A DNA stretch of 38,581 nt from NCBI GenBank assembly GCA_948468595.1, contig CAOKIU010000016.1, positions 1 to 38,581 on the forward strand, given 5' to 3'. Each line of letters starts with the position of its first letter. The stretch's first letter is position 1. This document shows positions 16,108 through 27,176 of this stretch, piece by piece. The notes beneath the pieces were generated by a model. That model searched no databases, was not told where the DNA came from, and worked only from the letters and a program-made list of their open reading frames with translations. The stretch comes from an uncultured Christensenella sp. (GTDB lineage: Bacteria > Bacillota > Clostridia > Christensenellales > UBA1750). The position numbers and the translations under genes are program-made.

Positions 16108-17241
16108 TTAGGCCAAATCGCGCGTGACGCACTTGAGCTGCTCGATGATGTTGATGTGCTGCGGGCAGGCGGCCTCGCACGCGCCGCAGGCCACGCAGTT
16201 GGTGGGGCTGTTGCCCGCGCCGGCCAGCTTGGCGTACCCCGCGTCGCCCTTCTTCAGGCCGCTGTAGAGGGATGCGTTGTTCCACGCCGAGAACGCGCCG
16301 GGAATGTCCACGCCCTGGGGGCAGGGCATGCAGTAGGCGCAGCCCGTGCAGCCCACCTTGATGCGGCTGTTGTAGGCGTCGCGCACGCGGTCGATCAGGT
16401 CCAATTCCTCCTGGGACATGCAGCCCGGCTCCACGCTGTCAAAGATGCGCAGGTTGTCCCGCACCTGGTCGGGCGTGGTCACGCCCGAGAGCACCGTGGC
16501 CACCTGGGGATGGTTGCACAGCCAGCGGAAGGCCCACTCCACCGGCGAGCGCTTGACGGGGAAGGCATCGTAGAGCGCCTGCACGTTGTCGGGCGCCACG
16601 GCGAGGCGGCCGCCCAGCAAGCCCTCCATGATGACCACGGGGATGCCCTTTTTCCCCGCGAGCTCAAGGCCCTTGGTGCCCGCCTGGTTTTCCACGTCCA
16701 TGTAGTTATACTGGATCTGCACCATATCCCAGTCGTAGTCGTTCAAAATGGTCTCAAACGCCTCGTAATCGTCGTGGAAGGAGAAGCAGGCATAGCGGAT
16801 CTTGCCCTCTTTTTTCAGGCGGTCCAGGAAGCGGCAGACCCCCAGCGCCTTGATCTTAGGCCAGCGCTCTTTATTGAGCGAGTGGACCAGGTAAAAGTCG
16901 ATGTGGTCGGTCTGAAGGCGCTCCAGCTCCTCGTCAAAGAAGCGCTGCATGTCCTCTTCCTTTTCCACCATCCAGGTCGGCAGCTTGGTGGCGATGGTGA
17001 CCTTTTCGCGGTAACCATCCTGCAGCGCACGGCCCACCACGCTTTCGGACTGCTGTCCCAAGTATACATAGGCGGTATCCAGATAGGTCACCCCGCCGTC
17101 AATGGCCGTGCGGATGATCTTAACGGCGTTCTCCTCATCCACGACGTCCTTGCCGTCCACCTTCTTCATGGGGAAGCGCATGCAGCCCAGGCCGAAAGCC
17201 GAGCCCTGAATCCCCAGTTTTCCAAAGGAGCGCATCTTCAT
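16108..17241 (-). CDS. Aldo/keto reductase with two C-terminal 4Fe-4S cysteine clusters
   Basis: This 377-residue oxidoreductase has an N-terminal AKR barrel with the catalytic tetrad D55, Y60, K86 and H120 (in YLDTAYVY, ATKLPTW and LVHS). The C-terminal extension has C298-x2-C301-x2-C304-x2-C307-P and C349-x2-C352-x2-C355-x3-C359-P, the classic ferredoxin arrangement for two 4Fe-4S clusters. This corresponds to the COG1453-type predicted oxidoreductases of anaerobes. It probably couples carbonyl chemistry to ferredoxin or flavin electrons rather than only NADPH, but partner and substrate are unknown. The start is ATG 17241 with GGAGG ten bases upstream. First gene of a leftward unit. Confidence 0.9.
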   Translation of the reverse strand: MKMRSFGKLGIQGSAFGLGCMRFPMKKVDGKDVVDEENAVKIIRTAIDGGVTYLDTAYVYLGQQSESVVGRALQDGYREKVTIATKLPTWMVEKEEDMQRFFDEELERLQTDHIDFYLVHSLNKERWPKIKALGVCRFLDRLKKEGKIRYACFSFHDDYEAFETILNDYDWDMVQIQYNYMDVENQAGTKGLELAGKKGIPVVIMEGLLGGRLAVAPDNVQALYDAFPVKRSPVEWAFRWLCNHPQVATVLSGVTTPDQVRDNLRIFDSVEPGCMSQEELDLIDRVRDAYNSRIKVGCTGCAYCMPCPQGVDIPGAFSAWNNASLYSGLKKGDAGYAKLAGAGNSPTNCVACGACEAACPQHINIIEQLKCVTRDLA

Positions 17242-18412: not shown

Positions 18413-19174
18413 ATGCGAATGCAGAACAAGTGCGCCGTGATCACCGGCGCGGCGTCGGGCATCGGCGCGCGCGCGGCAGTGCGGCTGGCGGCTGAGGGCG
18501 CCAAGTGCTTCCTGATGGATGTAAACGCCGAGGGCCTTGACGCCACCAAGAAACAAATCGAGCAGGCGGGCGGAAGCGCCGTTGCCTGTGCATGCGATGT
18601 CTCCGACGAGGAAGCCGTCCGGGCCGCGATTGAGCAGGCCGCGGCGGTCTTTTCGCGCATTGATATTTTGGTCAACGTCGCCGGCGTGCAGGTGACCAAG
18701 CTCCTGACCGATACTACCAAGGGCGACTACGACCGCATGATGGACATCAACGTGGGCGGCACGTTCCTGACCATGCGTTATGTGCTGCCGCTGATGAAGG
18801 CGCAGGGAAGCGGCGCCATCGTCAATTGCGCCTCGGAGCTGGCGTTTGTGGGCTATCACGAGCTGGCGGTCTATACCGCCACCAAGGGCGCGATGGTCAG
18901 CCTGACGCGCTCGGTCGCGCTGGAAGCCATCCCCTTTGGCGTGCGCGTCAACTGCGTCTGCCCCGGCGCCACGGATACGCCCATCTTCTGGGAGGGCGAG
19001 ACCGACCCGGATAAGCGGCGCAAGCTGCTGGACCAGGTGGCCGTAGAAAAGCCCATCGGCCGGCTGATCACCACCGACGAGGTGGCCAACGGCATCCTGT
19101 TCCTGGCCAGCGACGAGGCCAGCGGCGTTGTGGGCGCCAGCCTCATCATCGACGGCGGCTTTACCGCGCAGTAA
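18413..19174 (+). CDS. Short-chain dehydrogenase/reductase (SDR)
   Basis: This 253-residue classical SDR oxidises or reduces an alcohol/carbonyl substrate with NAD(P). TGAASGIG at 11-18 binds the dinucleotide, NVAG lies at 88-91, and the catalytic set is N113, S141, Y154 and K158 (YTATK). An aspartate at the end of strand 2 (MDVN, D36) favours NAD(H) over NADP(H). The C-terminal IIDGGFTAQ is typical. It is the first gene of a row with a creatininase-family enzyme (46 bases further), suggesting a shared small-molecule pathway. A second ATG (M3) is an alternative start. Confidence 0.9.
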   Translation: MRMQNKCAVITGAASGIGARAAVRLAAEGAKCFLMDVNAEGLDATKKQIEQAGGSAVACACDVSDEEAVRAAIEQAAAVFSRIDILVNVAGVQVTKLLTDTTKGDYDRMMDINVGGTFLTMRYVLPLMKAQGSGAIVNCASELAFVGYHELAVYTATKGAMVSLTRSVALEAIPFGVRVNCVCPGATDTPIFWEGETDPDKRRKLLDQVAVEKPIGRLITTDEVANGILFLASDEASGVVGASLIIDGGFTAQ

Positions 19175-19219: not shown

Positions 19220-20053
19220 ATGTATCAGGATGAAGAACTGCTCTATGAGGTCCGCGGACCCAAGAACATCACCGAGCTTACCGCGGCGGAGCTGAAGGAA
19301 AAGCTCAAGACTTGCGATACCATCGTATTTTCCTTCGGCGCGCTGGAAAACCACGGCAAGCACCTGCCGCTGGGCTGCGACACCTTCCAGGGCAACGTGC
19401 TGGTGCGCCGCGTGGCGCAGTACCTGGAGAAAAAGGGCATGGAGGCCGTGCCCGGCTTCGCCTTCCCTCTGGGCGTGCAGACCAATCAGTTTGAGCGGAC
19501 GGAAAACTTTGGCAACGGCTATCTGACTCAAAAGACGCTCATCGCCATGACCGAGGAGGTCTGCCTCTCCCTTGCAAAGAGCGGGTTTAAGCGGTTCATC
19601 TTCTGCGTCAGCCACGCGGAAAACCTGGCCGTGATGAACGTGGCGGCCAAGGACCTCTACGAGGAGCACGGCCTGACGGCGATGGTTTTAAACTGGATTC
19701 CGCCCATGAACGACGAATGGCCCAAGTTCCTCAAAAACCCCGAGCATCAGGGACACGGCGGCGAGGACGAGACCAGCTGCACGATGGTGGCGGTCCCCAA
19801 GCTGGTCAACCTCAACGACCTGCCCTCCTGGTATCCGCCGGAGAGCGATAAGAGCTACAAGCTGGACGGCCTGTACTACTACGGCGGCGCCATGGCTCTC
19901 TACGCGCCCACGGGCACGGCCCAGTGCCCCGGCTATGTGGGCGACCCTGCGGACGCCACCATTGAGGCGGGCGAAACCTGCTTTGACCTGTACGCCGACT
20001 GGATCTCCGATGTGGTGATCAAGTACCTGGGCGGAGCCTCTGTAAAGGGCTAA
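19220..20053 (+). CDS. Creatininase-family amidohydrolase
   Basis: This 277-residue protein belongs to the creatininase family, metal-dependent hydrolases of cyclic amides and related C-N bonds. Metal ligands match the family: GALENHGKHLPLGCD gives E43, H45 and D54, SHAEN gives H132 and E134, and GHGGEDETS lies at 178-186. The S-H-A-E-N motif is nearer to true creatininases than to the MftE-like branch, which carries GHGGN. The natural substrate remains unknown; creatinine, a formamide or a lactam are possible. The start is ATG 19220 behind AGGAGAG. A strong hairpin (20063-20109) follows, so downstream genes would need readthrough or a promoter that I do not see. Confidence 0.87.
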   Translation: MYQDEELLYEVRGPKNITELTAAELKEKLKTCDTIVFSFGALENHGKHLPLGCDTFQGNVLVRRVAQYLEKKGMEAVPGFAFPLGVQTNQFERTENFGNGYLTQKTLIAMTEEVCLSLAKSGFKRFIFCVSHAENLAVMNVAAKDLYEEHGLTAMVLNWIPPMNDEWPKFLKNPEHQGHGGEDETSCTMVAVPKLVNLNDLPSWYPPESDKSYKLDGLYYYGGAMALYAPTGTAQCPGYVGDPADATIEAGETCFDLYADWISDVVIKYLGGASVKG

Positions 20054-20062
20054 GCGCAGGTC

Positions 20063-20109
20063 GCGCCGCGAGGGCGGGCCGCCCGGGCTCGCCTTCGCGG
20101 CGCTTTTTT
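20063..20109 (+). terminator. Terminator after the creatininase-family gene
   Basis: Arms 20063-20076 and 20090-20103 pair over 14 bp with one G-U wobble, followed by six T (20104-20109). It may be partial, since the next gene starts 30 bases later with no clear promoter. Confidence 0.8.
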
Positions 20110-20139: not shown

Positions 20140-20913
20140 ATGCTTCCTACGCGCAATCCCGTCAGGGCACGCCAGGTGTCCCTGGGCGGGGTGATGGTTT
20201 CACAGGTGTGTTTTGGCACCGAGCACATCAACCGGTCCGTGCCCGAGTTTGGGGGCGACATTTTGGCCGACGCCGCCCGCCTGCACGGCATCAATTTCTG
20301 GGATACGGACAATGCCTACGGCAGTCACACCCAGGTGGCCGCCGGCCTTGCGCAGTTCCCCAGGGAGGAGATCGTCATCACCTCCAAGACCTACGGCCGC
20401 TCGCGCGCGGAGGCGGAGTACGATTTGACGCGCACCCTGCGCGAACTGGACACGCCCTACATCGACATCTTCCTTCTGCACGAAGTGGCGGCCGGCTCTC
20501 TTGACGAGAAGATGCCCGCCTTCCAATACATCCTGGAGATGCAGAAGAAGGGCTTCATCCGCGCGGTGGGCCTTTCGACGCACTGCGCGCCCATCATCTC
20601 GGCCGCCGCCGACATTCCTCAGGTGCAGATCGTCTGCGCGCCCTTCAACCGCGAGGGGTCCCGCATCGAGGAGGGCACGCTGGAGGACATGGAGCGCGCG
20701 CTGCGCAAGGCGCACGCGCGGGGCAAGGGCGTCTACGTCATCAAGGTGCTGGGCAAGGGCGAGCTGACGTACGATATTCCCGGCGCGCTGCGCTGGGCCT
20801 TTGAGCGCCGGGACTTCATCGACGTCTATAACCTGGGCGTGGCCAATCTTTCCGAGGCGCGGGAAAACTTGAGCGTGCTGAACGCTCTGTACGACGGGGA
20901 GGCGCGGCAATGA
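20140..20913 (+). CDS. Aldo/keto reductase
   Basis: This 257-residue soluble AKR has the catalytic tetrad D55, Y60, K83 and H114 (FWDTDNAYG, TSKTYG and FLLHEV). It lacks the C-terminal ferredoxin domain seen in the reductase at 16108-17241. It presumably reduces a carbonyl intermediate of the pathway encoded by its neighbours. The start is ATG 20140 with GGAGGG six bases upstream; the earlier GTG at 20119 is rejected for lack of a site. Its stop overlaps the next gene by four bases (ATGA), so the two are coupled. Confidence 0.88.
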   Translation: MLPTRNPVRARQVSLGGVMVSQVCFGTEHINRSVPEFGGDILADAARLHGINFWDTDNAYGSHTQVAAGLAQFPREEIVITSKTYGRSRAEAEYDLTRTLRELDTPYIDIFLLHEVAAGSLDEKMPAFQYILEMQKKGFIRAVGLSTHCAPIISAAADIPQVQIVCAPFNREGSRIEEGTLEDMERALRKAHARGKGVYVIKVLGKGELTYDIPGALRWAFERRDFIDVYNLGVANLSEARENLSVLNALYDGEARQ

Positions 20914-22187
20914 AAACCATCGTCAAGGGCGGTCTGGTCATCACCTTCATCCACGAGGGGTATCATTCCATCAAAATGAAATACGCCGACCTCCTCATTG
21001 AGGACGGCCGGTTCCTGGACATCAAGGAGGAAATCACGGATGCAAGCGCCCGGGTGGTGGACGCGCACGGCCTTTGGGTGCTGCCCGGCCTTGTGGACGT
21101 GGCTTCCTCGGCGGCGGGGGCCGTGCTGCTCAACGGCCTCCTGCCCGACTATTCGCGCGCCCGCTGGCAGGGCAGCATGATCCATGGCCGCGCGCTGCCG
21201 GTGCTGGAGATCGCTTCGGACCTATTGAGCGAGGAGGAGAAGCGGGCGGTCATGCGCTATGCTCTGCTCCTGATGCTGGACGGCGGCGCCACCACGCTTG
21301 CCGATCTCACCCCGCCCGCCTTTGCCGGGGCCCTGCGCCATGAGGCGGAAAGCCTGGGCATCCGGGCCCTGATCTACCCCGAGCGCACGGCCCAGGGCAC
21401 GCCCGCCGCCGAGCACAGCGGCCTGCTGCGCGTACCCCCGCGAAAGGGCGGTGAATTCGCCCCCGGCGACGCCTTGTTCTCGGTGGAGACGACCTCGCCG
21501 GAGATGTATGCGCAGGCGCGCCGCGCACAGGGGCCGCTGTTGGTGCGCGCGGCCTACTGCGAGTACGAGCGACAGGTCAGCCGCATGGCCTTTGGCGCGT
21601 CTCCCCTGGAAAAGCTGGACAAGGAGGGCCTGCTCACCGGCCGCACGATCGTGGCCGGCGGCTACCAGACCGACTTTTTCGACCGCGAGCGCCTGCGCAC
21701 GGCGGGGGCGTCGGTCGCCATGTCGGCCGTCACCGCCATGCAGGACGGCGTCCCCTTCCCCATCGTCACCCTGCTTAAACAGGATGTCAACACCTGCCTT
21801 TCCACCGGCTATTTCGGCCTGAGCATGCTGGACGAAATGCGCCAGGCGGCCTTTGGCGGCAAGCTGGAGAGCAGCGCCACGCAGTTCCAGGCCTCCGACG
21901 CCTTCTACGCGGCCACCATCGCCGGCGCGCAGGCCCTGGGCGAGCAAATCGGCCGCATCGAGCCGGGCTACAACGCGGATCTGCTCTTTGTGGACCCCAC
22001 GGCCCTGGGGCCGCACAACTACCCCCTGATCCAGCTCGTCTACCGCGGCGGAAGCCGCGACATCGTCTCCCGCATGGTGGGCGGGCGGATGCTCCCCTTG
22101 GAGCGGGCGTCCCTTGCCTCAAGCGCCGCCGCCGCGCAGCGGGCCGCCCAAAGGGTCTGGGCCGAGGCGCGCAAGACCATCCTGTAG
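20910..22187 (+). CDS. Amidohydrolase-superfamily protein lacking the metal-binding residues
   Basis: This 425-residue protein has the overall layout of chlorohydrolase/SsnA/AtzA-type amidohydrolases: an N-terminal beta-sandwich (VKGGLVITF, DLLIEDGRFLDI), VLPGLVD at 57-63, the barrel, and the late segment GRIEPGYNADLLFVD at 348-362. Every expected metal ligand is missing. The HxH after PGLVD reads A65-S-S67, the third-His region reads RAAYCEYE (213-220), the AHC(V)H segment reads AGGYQTDF (249-256), and GTDG reads STGY (298-301). It is therefore probably catalytically dead as a hydrolase, or uses different chemistry. The frame is intact and translationally coupled to the AKR, which argues against decay. 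Confidence 0.82.
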   Translation: MKTIVKGGLVITFIHEGYHSIKMKYADLLIEDGRFLDIKEEITDASARVVDAHGLWVLPGLVDVASSAAGAVLLNGLLPDYSRARWQGSMIHGRALPVLEIASDLLSEEEKRAVMRYALLLMLDGGATTLADLTPPAFAGALRHEAESLGIRALIYPERTAQGTPAAEHSGLLRVPPRKGGEFAPGDALFSVETTSPEMYAQARRAQGPLLVRAAYCEYERQVSRMAFGASPLEKLDKEGLLTGRTIVAGGYQTDFFDRERLRTAGASVAMSAVTAMQDGVPFPIVTLLKQDVNTCLSTGYFGLSMLDEMRQAAFGGKLESSATQFQASDAFYAATIAGAQALGEQIGRIEPGYNADLLFVDPTALGPHNYPLIQLVYRGGSRDIVSRMVGGRMLPLERASLASSAAAAQRAAQRVWAEARKTIL

Positions 22188-22284: not shown

Positions 22285-22335
22285 GTCACCGTACAACTTC
22301 GCAACGTTTGACGTTTTAAGGAGATGCTGTTCAAC

Positions 22336-23268
22336 ATGAAAAAGTTCTCAAAGATTCTTGCGCTGGTTTGCGCGCTGATGATGGTGGCGGGCCTTGCGGC
22401 CGGCTGCCAGTCCACGCCGGCTGCCGAGCCCACCGCAACGCCGGAGGCCACTGCGACCCCTGAGGCCACCGTGGCGCCCGAAACGTCCCCGGAAGCCTCT
22501 AACGAACCCGCTCCGGAAGAGAGCGCCGCCGCTACCCCCACCTTGGACGCGATCCGTCAGCGCGGCACGCTGATCCTGGGCACCGAGTCCACCTATCCTC
22601 CCTTTGAGTTCATCGTCGTGGAAAACGGCGAGTCCAAGGGCGTGGGCTTCGACGTCTCCCTGGCCGAGATCATCGCCGAGAAGCTGGGCGTTGAGCTGGT
22701 CACTTCCGAGATGGCCTTCGATTCCCTGATTCCCGCGCTGCAGGCGGGCACCATCGATATCGCCGCTTCCGTCACCCCCACGCAGGAGCGCAAGGAAGCC
22801 GTCGATTTCTCCGACAACTACTATGACACCACCAACTGCTTTGTGGTGCGCATCGCCGAGAAGGACAACTTCACCGCGCAGGAGAGCTTTGCCGGCAAGA
22901 CCATCGGCGCGCAGCTGGGCACCGCCCAGAACACCCTGGTCACCGATGTGCTGACCGACTCCAAGAACCTCATCCTGCCCAAGTGCTCCACGCTGATTCA
23001 GGAGCTCAAGACCGGCAACATCGACGCCATCTGCCTGGAAAAGCCCGTTGCCGACACCTATGTCGCGGCGCATGCGGCCGACCTTGCGGTGTGCCCCTTT
23101 GAGATGCCGGTGGAAGAGGGCGGCGTGGCCATCCCCGTTGCCAAGGGCAAGGAGGACCTGATCGCCTTCATCAACGACGTCATTGCCGAGCTCAAGGCCA
23201 ACGGCGAGATGCAGCGCATCTACGACGAGGCCGTGACGCTGGCCATCGACCAGATCGGCGAGGAGTAA
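22336..23268 (+). CDS. Polar amino-acid type ABC transporter substrate-binding lipoprotein
   Basis: This 310-residue family 3 solute-binding lipoprotein has a signal sequence with lipobox LAAGC (C24). A long linker of PEAT-like repeats (about 28-66: TPEATATPEAT and variants) precedes the binding domain (about 68-310), with GTLILGTESTYPPFEF and TPTQERKEAVDFSDNYY typical of glutamine/cystine/arginine binders. The ligand is not certain. The start is ATG 22336 with AAGGAG twelve bases upstream; ATG 22324 overlaps the ribosome site. The linker probably spaces the domain from the membrane through the cell wall. Confidence 0.9.
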   Translation: MKKFSKILALVCALMMVAGLAAGCQSTPAAEPTATPEATATPEATVAPETSPEASNEPAPEESAAATPTLDAIRQRGTLILGTESTYPPFEFIVVENGESKGVGFDVSLAEIIAEKLGVELVTSEMAFDSLIPALQAGTIDIAASVTPTQERKEAVDFSDNYYDTTNCFVVRIAEKDNFTAQESFAGKTIGAQLGTAQNTLVTDVLTDSKNLILPKCSTLIQELKTGNIDAICLEKPVADTYVAAHAADLAVCPFEMPVEEGGVAIPVAKGKEDLIAFINDVIAELKANGEMQRIYDEAVTLAIDQIGEE

Positions 23269-23336: not shown

Positions 23337-23369
23337 CCGACAGGATGAAAAAGAGAAAGGTTGCGTTGC

Positions 23370-24056
23370 ATGGAACTGAATTTCAGCTTTATGACCAAGT
23401 ATTGGCCGCTATTTGTGCGGGGCGCGGGCACCACGCTGGTCCTGTCGGTGTTCACCGTGCTCATCGGCCTCATTGTGGGCGTTGTGCTGGCGCTGATGCG
23501 GCTGGGCAAATTCAAGCCCCTCTCCTTTCTTTCCGCGGCCTACACCGAGTTTATTCGCGGCACGCCGCTGATGGTGCAGATCTTCTTCATCTTCTACGCC
23601 TTGCCGCAGATGGGCTTTAAGATTCCCAACATCACGGGCCTGGGCTTTGATTTCCCGCGCTTTGCCTCGGGTATTCTGGCCATGGGTCTCAATTCCGCCG
23701 CCTACGTGGGCGAGATCGTGCGCGCGGGCATTCAGGCCGTGGACAAGGGCCAGACCGAGGCCGCGCGCTCCCTGGGCATGACCGCCTGGCAGACGATGCG
23801 CCGCGTCGTCCTGCCCCAGGCGTTTAAGAACATCCTGCCCGCGCTCGGCAACGAATTTGTCACCGTCATCAAGGAATCCTCCATCGTCATGGTCATCGGC
23901 ATCACGGAGCTGATGTTCAACACCTCCCAGGTGTATTCCAGCTCCTACCGCTATTTTGAGTCGCTGATCGTCTGCGCGTTGGTCTATTTTGTGATGACGT
24001 TCACCACCTCGCGGCTGCTGGCCGTGATGGAAAGGAGGATGAAGCGCGATGCCTGA
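23370..24056 (+). CDS. Amino-acid ABC transporter permease (HisM/GlnP family)
   Basis: This 228-residue inner-membrane permease has about five hydrophobic segments and the EAA loop [20 protein letters not shown] in the second half. It is probably a homodimer, since only one permease gene is present. [18 protein letters not shown] is typical of the polar amino-acid permease family. The start ATG 23370 follows AAAGG by nine bases. It overlaps the ATPase gene by eight bases. Confidence 0.92.
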
Positions 24057-24795
24057 GCAAAATGACGTCATTCTCAAGGTGCAAGGCCTTCAGATGCGCT
24101 TTGGCAAGCTGGAGGTGCTCAAGGGCGTGGATACCGTCATTCGCCGCGGCGAGGTGATCGTGGTCATCGGCGCGTCCGGCGCGGGCAAATCCACTTTTCT
24201 AAGGTGCCTCAACCGCTTGGAGACGCCCACGGGCGGCGACATCCTCTTTGAGGGGGAATCGGTCGTGCACGCGGGCCGCAATCTCAACCATCTCCGCCAG
24301 CGCATGGGCATGGTGTTCCAGCAATTCAACCTCTTCAACAACCTCAGCGTTTTGGACAACATCACCCTGGCGCCCATCATCGTCAAAAAAATGGAGAAGG
24401 CCGCGGCCCAGCAGGAGGCCATGCAGCTCCTTGCCCGCGTGGGCCTTCAGGACAAGGCGCAGGCCTTCCCCGCGCAGCTCTCCGGCGGTCAGCGGCAGCG
24501 CATCGCCATCGTCCGCGCCCTGGCCATGCATCCGGACGTCATGCTCTTTGACGAGCCCACCTCCGCCCTGGACCCGGAGATGGTGGGCGAGGTCTTGGAC
24601 GTGATGCAGCAGCTCGCCGCCGACGGCATGACCATGGTGGTGGTCTCCCACGAAATGGGCTTTGCCCGCAAGGTGGCCAACCGCATTCTCTTCATGGAGA
24701 ATGGCGTCATTCTGGAGGACGGTTCTCCGGAGGATATCTTCGATCACCCGGCCTCCGACCGCCTGAAGGAATTCCTGGGCAAGGTACTACACTAA
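24049..24795 (+). CDS. Amino-acid ABC transporter ATPase (GlnQ/HisP family)
   Basis: This 248-residue ATPase of the importer encoded by the two preceding genes has Walker A GASGAGKS at 41-48, the signature LSGGQRQR near residue 144, Walker [14 protein letters not shown], and H-loop VSHEMGFA. These features are typical of glutamine/histidine/cystine uptake ATPases. The start ATG 24049 lies inside the permease end (eight-base overlap). A hairpin at 24812-24846 closes the unit. Confidence 0.93.
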
Positions 24796-25892: not shown

Positions 25893-27176
25893 ATGAAAAA
25901 ACTCAAGATTCAGGGCCGATACCTCGCCTGGGAAGACGGCGAGCCGTTCTTCTACCTGGGCGACACCGCCTGGGAGCTGTTCCATCGGCTCAGCCGCGAG
26001 GAAATGGCGCACTACTTTTCCCAGCGCGCCCGCCAGGGCTTTACCGCCGTGCAGGCCGTGGCCTTAGCCGAGTTTGAGGGCGTGACCGTGCCCAATTACT
26101 ACGGCCGCCTGCCGCTGTGCTTCACCAACGACCGCCCCGATCCCACGAAGCCGGACACCGCCAGTGGTTACTCCTATTGGGACCATGTGGATTACGCCGT
26201 GGAAACCGCGGCGGAGAACGGCCTGTTCGTGGCGCTGCTGCCCACCTGGGGCGATAAAATCAACCTCTGCTGGGGCAAGGGCCCGGTAATTTTTGACGAG
26301 GAGAACGCCTATCTCTACGGCAAATGGATTGCGGACCGCTACAAGGACCGCTGGAACATCATCTGGATGCTGGGCGGCGACCGCCCGTTGGAGGCTTCCC
26401 ACCGCGCCGTGATCGACAGCATGGCCCGCGGCATCCGTCAGGTGGATCAAAACCACCTGATCACCTTCCATCCCCCGGGCGCGAAGGATTCCACGGATTT
26501 CCTTCTGGACGCGGACTACATCGATTTTCATACCTCGCAAACGGGCCACAGCACCGATCAGTGCTACGCCACGGACGAAATCATGGGCAAAATGGCCGCC
26601 GCATCTCCCAAGCCCTATCTGGATTCCGAGCCCCGCTACGAGGACCATCCCGCGTGCTTCAACGACCGCATCGGCTACTTCTGGAACGACCAGGACGTGC
26701 GCCAAAACGCCTACTGGAACGCGCTTGCCGGCGCGTGCGGGCACACCTATGGCAACCACAGCATTTGGAGCATGACGCGCCAGCCCACCAGCTATTTCCC
26801 CTACACCTGGTCGGAAGCGCTCACCCATCCGGGCGCGGAGCAGATTGGGTATGTCAAGAAGCTGCGCCTCAGCCGCGATTACTTTTCGCTGCGCCCGGCC
26901 CCTCAGCTCCTTGAGGAGACCTTTGCCGGCATGGGGCACATGGCCGCGGCGCTGGGAGAGGACTACGCCTATTTTTACGCGCCGCTGGGCGTGCCCTTCA
27001 CGGTGAAGCTGGACCTCTTCCCCGGCTGCAAGCAAGTGCGCGCGCTCTGGTTCGACCCGCGCACGGGCGAGGAATGGGTTTTTGCCATCCTGCACAACGC
27101 GGGCAGCACGCTGCTCGCGCCGCCCACCCAGGGCAAGGGCTGCGATTGGGTACTGATCTTGGAGGCCGTAAGGTAG
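25893..27176 (+). CDS. DUF4038/apiosidase-like glycoside hydrolase (GH140-like)
   Basis: This 427-residue TIM-barrel protein resembles the GH140 apiosidase/DUF4038 group. FFYLGDTAWELFHRL at 19-33 is the family opening. WNIIWMLGGDRP (D163) and KPYLDSEPRYED (E246) carry the likely catalytic acids. A C-terminal beta domain (about 340-427) resembles the small sandwich often fused to this barrel. There is no signal peptide, so it works in the cytoplasm on imported oligosaccharides. The exact sugar is not known; apiose specificity is only family-based. The start is ATG 25893 with AGGAGG eight bases upstream; the longer upstream frame runs through the promoter and is rejected. Confidence 0.82.
   Translation: MKKLKIQGRYLAWEDGEPFFYLGDTAWELFHRLSREEMAHYFSQRARQGFTAVQAVALAEFEGVTVPNYYGRLPLCFTNDRPDPTKPDTASGYSYWDHVDYAVETAAENGLFVALLPTWGDKINLCWGKGPVIFDEENAYLYGKWIADRYKDRWNIIWMLGGDRPLEASHRAVIDSMARGIRQVDQNHLITFHPPGAKDSTDFLLDADYIDFHTSQTGHSTDQCYATDEIMGKMAAASPKPYLDSEPRYEDHPACFNDRIGYFWNDQDVRQNAYWNALAGACGHTYGNHSIWSMTRQPTSYFPYTWSEALTHPGAEQIGYVKKLRLSRDYFSLRPAPQLLEETFAGMGHMAAALGEDYAYFYAPLGVPFTVKLDLFPGCKQVRALWFDPRTGEEWVFAILHNAGSTLLAPPTQGKGCDWVLILEAVR

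Follow-up and report, generated by a model that had tools for sequence, protein, structure and literature searches.

The gene PSE, a pseudo-amidohydrolase in the window (the whole 38,581-nucleotide stretch of gut-bacterial DNA analysed here), encodes an amidohydrolase-fold protein from which every metal ligand has been lost, and the same losses recur in five further loci. Catalytic residues lost across a whole family, together with purifying selection on what remains, are the marks of a retained pseudoenzyme, and PSE is a new, rare family of this known kind. With moderate confidence, we propose that PSE is a former hydrolase that now serves, in the manner of pseudo-dihydroorotase (pDHO), as a non-catalytic subunit, with the aldo-keto reductase (AKR) whose gene it overlaps as the likeliest partner. 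Features of the locus are collected in Table 1.

Table 1. Genes, residues and signals at the PSE locus (window coordinates)
Feature	Position	Strand	Remarks
SDR, short-chain dehydrogenase	18413..19174	+	first of the conserved four genes
CRE, creatininase-family protein	19220..20053	+	E43, H45, D54, H132, E134, H179 invariant
Terminator-like hairpin	20063..20109	+	18 pairs then T6; CRE/AKR junction; -43.3 kcal/mol
AKR, aldo-keto reductase	20140..20913	+	4-nt overlap with PSE; D52, Y57, K80, H111 invariant (aligned-stretch numbering)
PSE, pseudo-amidohydrolase	20910..22187	+	425 aa; clean frame, Pfam, AlphaFold, Foldseek
N-terminal hairpin 14-31 with invariant HEGYH (15-19)	20949..21002	+	most family-specific conserved stretch
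A65-S66-S67, HxH ligand position	21102..21110	+	A/G-S-S, GAS or GSW across all six relatives
Residues 80-88, DYSRARWQG	21147..21173	+	conserved; low model confidence, as the HEGYH loop
R213-A-A-Y216, third His ligand and HxxE acid position	21546..21557	+	MAFFT, hhalign
G250, fourth-His position	21657..21659	+	MAFFT, hhalign
G300, ligand-Asp position	21807..21809	+	Gly in 6/6
Family-3 amino-acid-type solute-binding protein	22324..23268	+	downstream of PSE
ABC permease	23361..24056	+	part of importer downstream of PSE
ABC ATPase	24049..24795	+	part of importer downstream of PSE

An amidohydrolase fold without its metal site

The PSE frame is clean, running for 425 codons from an ATG at 20910 to a stop at 22185-22187. 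Its product matches Pfam family PF01979 above the family cut-off (3e-16) and falls far short of the NCBIfam equivalog cut-off, the best model giving 100.6 bits where 609 are required. The AlphaFold model (mean pLDDT 91.7) contains a full-length amidohydrolase TIM barrel and a beta-sandwich. Its top PDB matches in Foldseek are 3lnp (E 3.1e-28) and AtzA, and the fold spans the full length against 3lnp, 4v1x and 4dyk (query-normalised TM-score 0.81-0.85). A confident model with these best matches indicates that the amidohydrolase fold survives. A stretch of about 20 residues is missing beside the fourth barrel strand; it corresponds to helix 182-198 of the metal-site-intact amidohydrolase that we name AH989 (genome G989, L039:7910-9292, minus strand), and the most distant PSE member has lost more, near residues 154-180 and 218-232. 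Two low-confidence blocks of the model (64 and 59) hold the HEGYH and 80-88 stretches.

What has become of the metal site? In an alignment of 29 sequences, comprising six PSE family members, 22 control amidohydrolases and AH989, all four metal ligands, as well as the second-shell His, are kept in the 22 controls and in AH989, and not one of them in the six PSE members. The HxH pair, H/H in all controls, is A or G followed by S or W in the family. The third His (22/22 controls) is replaced by R/R/R/R/Y/V, the HxxE acid (Glu in 21/22) by Y/Y/Y/Y/Y/S and the fourth, second-shell His (22/22) by G/G/G/G/Q/Q, while the ligand Asp, again constant among the 22 controls, is Gly in every PSE member. An hhalign comparison of the PSE family profile with a clean intact-enzyme profile gave the identical pairing over 408 columns (E 9.5e-52), and the agreement of MAFFT and hhalign rules out misalignment as the source of the loss. 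The only invariant His residues of the family, H15 and H19, both lie in the N-terminal sandwich hairpin; with no invariant replacement His in any barrel-mouth loop of the six aligned sequences, the lost ligands have no obvious His substitute at the barrel mouth. The conclusion that PSE does not carry out hydrolysis by the metal mechanism is strongly supported and follows from the chemistry of the lost ligands. A preliminary description of this DNA had reported an amidohydrolase fold and the absence of all metal ligands from an intact 425-codon frame: its motifs lie where it put them, at A65-S66-S67, R213-A-A-Y-C-E-Y-E, A-G249-G250-Y and S-T-G300-Y, the predicted structure bears out the fold, and the sequence comparison speaks against the substitute ligands at the barrel mouth that it had considered.

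Conservation, in turn, has shifted to new parts of the protein. Pairwise NG86 estimates of dN/dS, whose absolute values are rough at this high G+C content, are 0.25-0.49 among the five closer PSE members and 0.44-0.63 against the most distant one (G450); for the same closer genome pairs they are about 0.08-0.15 for CRE, 0.13-0.36 for AKR and 0.15-0.28 for SDR. PSE is constrained, yet evolves faster than these three neighbours, CRE being the slowest of the set. There are no stops or frameshifts in the six copies, at identities down to 37%, and by these sequence measures PSE is under purifying selection. Six intact amidohydrolases of similar divergence served as the reference for conservation, with significance assessed by circular shifts (n=424). 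The ligand loops score 0.47 in PSE and 0.70 in the intact enzymes, against 0.55 and 0.46 for the rest of the protein (0/424 shifts as low), loop 213-221 being the most eroded. Hairpin 14-31 scores 0.88 in PSE and 0.19 in the intact enzymes (0/424 shifts as high). Loops 190-197 and 272-285 at the barrel mouth have kept a fair degree of conservation, and R259, Q278, T295, Q325 and Y333 are among the family-specific invariant residues.

Gene order, distribution and origin

The order SDR-CRE-AKR-PSE is identical in all six loci, and AKR and PSE overlap by 4 nt (ATGA) in five of them and by 8 nt in the sixth. To judge by their invariant residues (Table 1), CRE and AKR appear to have kept their catalytic sites, the four residues in AKR being, as we take it, the known catalytic tetrad of aldo-keto reductases. 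The ABC importer genes lie 3' of PSE in L021, L022 and L024 as well; the L023 contig stops short of that region, and the G450 contig shows none of them. Two neighbours outside the conserved set may be recorded here. Another aldo-keto reductase, carrying a 4Fe-4S dicluster domain at its C-terminus (window 16108-17241, minus strand), is divergent from the operon and is kept beside it in three congeneric relatives, and an apiosidase-like (PF13204) glycoside hydrolase (window 25893-27176, plus strand) follows a patatin-like gene, both of them also present in L022.

The five further loci with the same ligand losses are 76, 69, 68, 55 and 37% identical to PSE and fall into three lineages: the genus itself (three more genomes), Candidatus Fimivivens faecavium (L024, 55%) and a third represented by G450 (L029, 37%). 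The assemblies that supplied the close homologues are all drafts, and the known lineages number three. The loss being common to six loci, a single degenerate copy is ruled out. The family is rare, with members in 4 of 396 sampled genomes of the order, one more among 391 of the class and no further one among 398 sampled genomes of the phylum beyond it. One genome within the genus has neither PSE nor CRE, and among 38 related genomes those with CRE (E<=1e-20) are precisely the four with PSE. Two of the three lineages may be linked by horizontal transfer. No PSE relative was found among viral contigs; plasmids yielded only metal-dependent amidohydrolases, about 30% identical to PSE, two of which sit in amino-acid-transport and carbamoyl/dihydroorotase-like gene sets. 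Literature searches for the SDR-CRE-AKR-PSE cluster found no description of it.

The terminator-like hairpin at the CRE/AKR junction is absent from the four close relatives inspected, whose junctions are short; its effect, in the window genome only, may be to uncouple AKR-PSE from SDR-CRE. The gene had earlier been placed in a creatininase operon. CRE does lie upstream on the same strand, but in the window this strong hairpin intervenes, so that the placement stands only in part. The ATGA coupling to AKR, by contrast, is real and conserved, and homologues with the same substitutions in the same neighbourhood, which the preliminary description had proposed to seek, exist in the five further loci.

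Where does PSE come from? Its closest metal-site-intact relative found is AH989, from a genome of another class. AH989 (461 aa) keeps H67, H69, H240, H277 and D327, carries Gln in place of the usual acid Glu (HLAQT), and has in common with PSE the FI.E.Y pattern, an extended 80-100 segment and an ASDAF motif. It lies directly 3' of an AKR that is 51% identical to the window AKR, across a gap of 57 nt; a search for a close AKR elsewhere in the phylum gave generic AKRs everywhere and a close one only in G989. The SDR upstream of AH989 is only distantly related to that of the window (33%). In a midpoint-rooted tree the six PSE sequences come together (100/100) at the end of a long branch, with AH989 as the next to join (98/93). 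Because AH989 is intact, stands beside an orthologous AKR and groups with PSE in the tree, the metal site was probably lost after the association of amidohydrolase and AKR arose.

The lack of a CRE gene beside AH989 would fit replacement of the hydrolase by CRE, but a CRE orthologue (52% identity) is present in G989 on a different contig from AH989-AKR. CRE and a metal-site-intact amidohydrolase can therefore coexist, which makes a simple takeover of the hydrolase reaction by CRE unlikely. The G989 cluster itself (L039 7253-10926) comprises a phosphoribosyltransferase, AH989, AKR and SDR, and its chemistry may also depart from deamination. Two metallo-beta-lactamase-fold-like genes of G989, read by eye (L069 6238-6843, minus strand; L043 2058-2687, plus strand), lie near the CRE orthologue and a hydantoinase-like/racemase-like set, respectively.

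Candidate roles of PSE

What might a hydrolase without its metal site be kept for? In the model that we favour, PSE would trace back to a metal-dependent member of the SsnA/AtzA/adenosine-deaminase group of amidohydrolases, already encoded next to AKR. The whole metal site was lost in one lineage, and the protein would then have been kept as a structural or regulatory subunit. The likeliest partner would be AKR, made from the same message via the start-stop overlap. It is the strictness of this overlap that points to AKR; overlapping genes are common in operons. The new interaction surface would consist of the HEGYH hairpin and the 80-88 segment: both are conserved yet modelled with low confidence, which suggests surfaces that a partner completes. 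Together with the ABC importer, the four genes would probably import and degrade a small compound with an amide or lactam group. Faint hints of small amide or ureide substrates come from the type of importer, from CRE and from the carbamoyl/dihydroorotase-like plasmid neighbours. A phloroglucinol-type pathway is ruled out, for there the ring is opened by a relative of isatin hydrolase and not by a creatininase (PMC10470551).

That the partner is CRE and not AKR, with PSE as its non-hydrolytic companion or allosteric subunit, is a minority possibility. CRE accompanies AKR-PSE in all six loci, matches the distribution of PSE among the 38 related genomes and evolves slowest; the four genomes in which the two co-occur nevertheless represent one genus, the terminator-like hairpin separates CRE from AKR-PSE in the window, and the position of the G989 CRE on another contig suggests that the pairing of AKR with the amidohydrolase came first. 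Of the roles offered by the preliminary description, we infer that a protein partner is the best supported, with the amendment that the tightest genetic link is to AKR rather than to the creatininase-family protein. Its broader proposal of a selected non-hydrolytic role has held up, the loss being present in 6/6 loci with synteny kept, dN/dS of 0.25-0.49 for the closer pairs and conservation moved off the ligand loops.

New chemistry and ligand sensing are also possible roles. Some members of the amidohydrolase superfamily are known to work without metal, a precedent for metal-free chemistry or a sensor in the old barrel pocket of PSE, and the five invariant residues named above and the conserved mouth parts 190-197 and 272-285 would be compatible with a bound ligand or a new reaction. 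We regard this reading as unlikely: the ligand loops, chiefly 213-221, are less conserved than in the matched active enzymes, one barrel helix is gone and the most distant member has two further deletions. Decidedly unlikely, in our judgement, is a site centred on HEGYH in the sandwich that, by metal-free or relocated-metal chemistry, acts on or channels an AKR intermediate. Relocation of the metal site as such, with H15, E16 and H19 of HEGYH (an HExxH motif) binding a metal, perhaps together with D80, seems to us very improbable. The motif is invariant in 6/6 members and AH989 has NEAYE in its place, so that the two His probably arose in the same lineage in which the old ligands disappeared, and HExxH appeared in only 118/20,000 shuffles. 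Zincins, however, carry HExxH on a helix, whereas HEGYH is in a low-confidence strand-strand loop of the N-terminal sandwich. Least credible is a passenger gene, an unused hydrolase slowly decaying in the operon, which would fit the barrel deletions and a dN/dS above that of the neighbours; six copies free of stops and frameshifts, the invariant hairpin, the retained AKR overlap and purifying selection speak against it.

Relation to known pseudoenzymes

The subunit role that we favour has a precedent in pDHO, which is inactive yet required for the activity and assembly of Pseudomonas ATCase (PMC7053772). Like PSE, pDHO (class A2 ATCase, yeast Ura2) has the same superfamily fold, has lost its ligands and has been retained; it demonstrates that an amidohydrolase fold can serve as a non-catalytic subunit. 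The two differ in origin: dihydroorotase gave rise to pDHO, whereas PSE goes back to the AtzA/SsnA/adenosine-deaminase group and stands beside an AKR, its presumed partner. PSE did not emerge as a pDHO member: there is no ATCase among the neighbours examined, and its nearest families are those of the chlorohydrolase/deaminase group. The dihydropyrimidinase-related proteins (CRMP/DRP) are likewise amidohydrolase-fold proteins that have lost catalysis and turned into binding proteins. They match PSE only weakly at the N-terminus and, unlike PSE, are eukaryotic and derive from dihydropyrimidinase. The SsnA/AtzA/TrzN/adenosine-deaminase-type enzymes (PF01979) have a fold like that of PSE, which differs from them in lacking any metal ligand. 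Annotation pipelines will label PSE an amidohydrolase, which is misleading.

To our knowledge, most documented pseudoenzymes of the amidohydrolase superfamily belong to its dihydroorotase and dihydropyrimidinase branches. PSE is a bacterial pseudoenzyme family from the AtzA/SsnA/deaminase branch, with an intact relative beside the same reductase gene. AH989 and PSE thus represent the states before and after the change, so that a direct test is possible of how catalysis disappeared and a new conserved surface arose.
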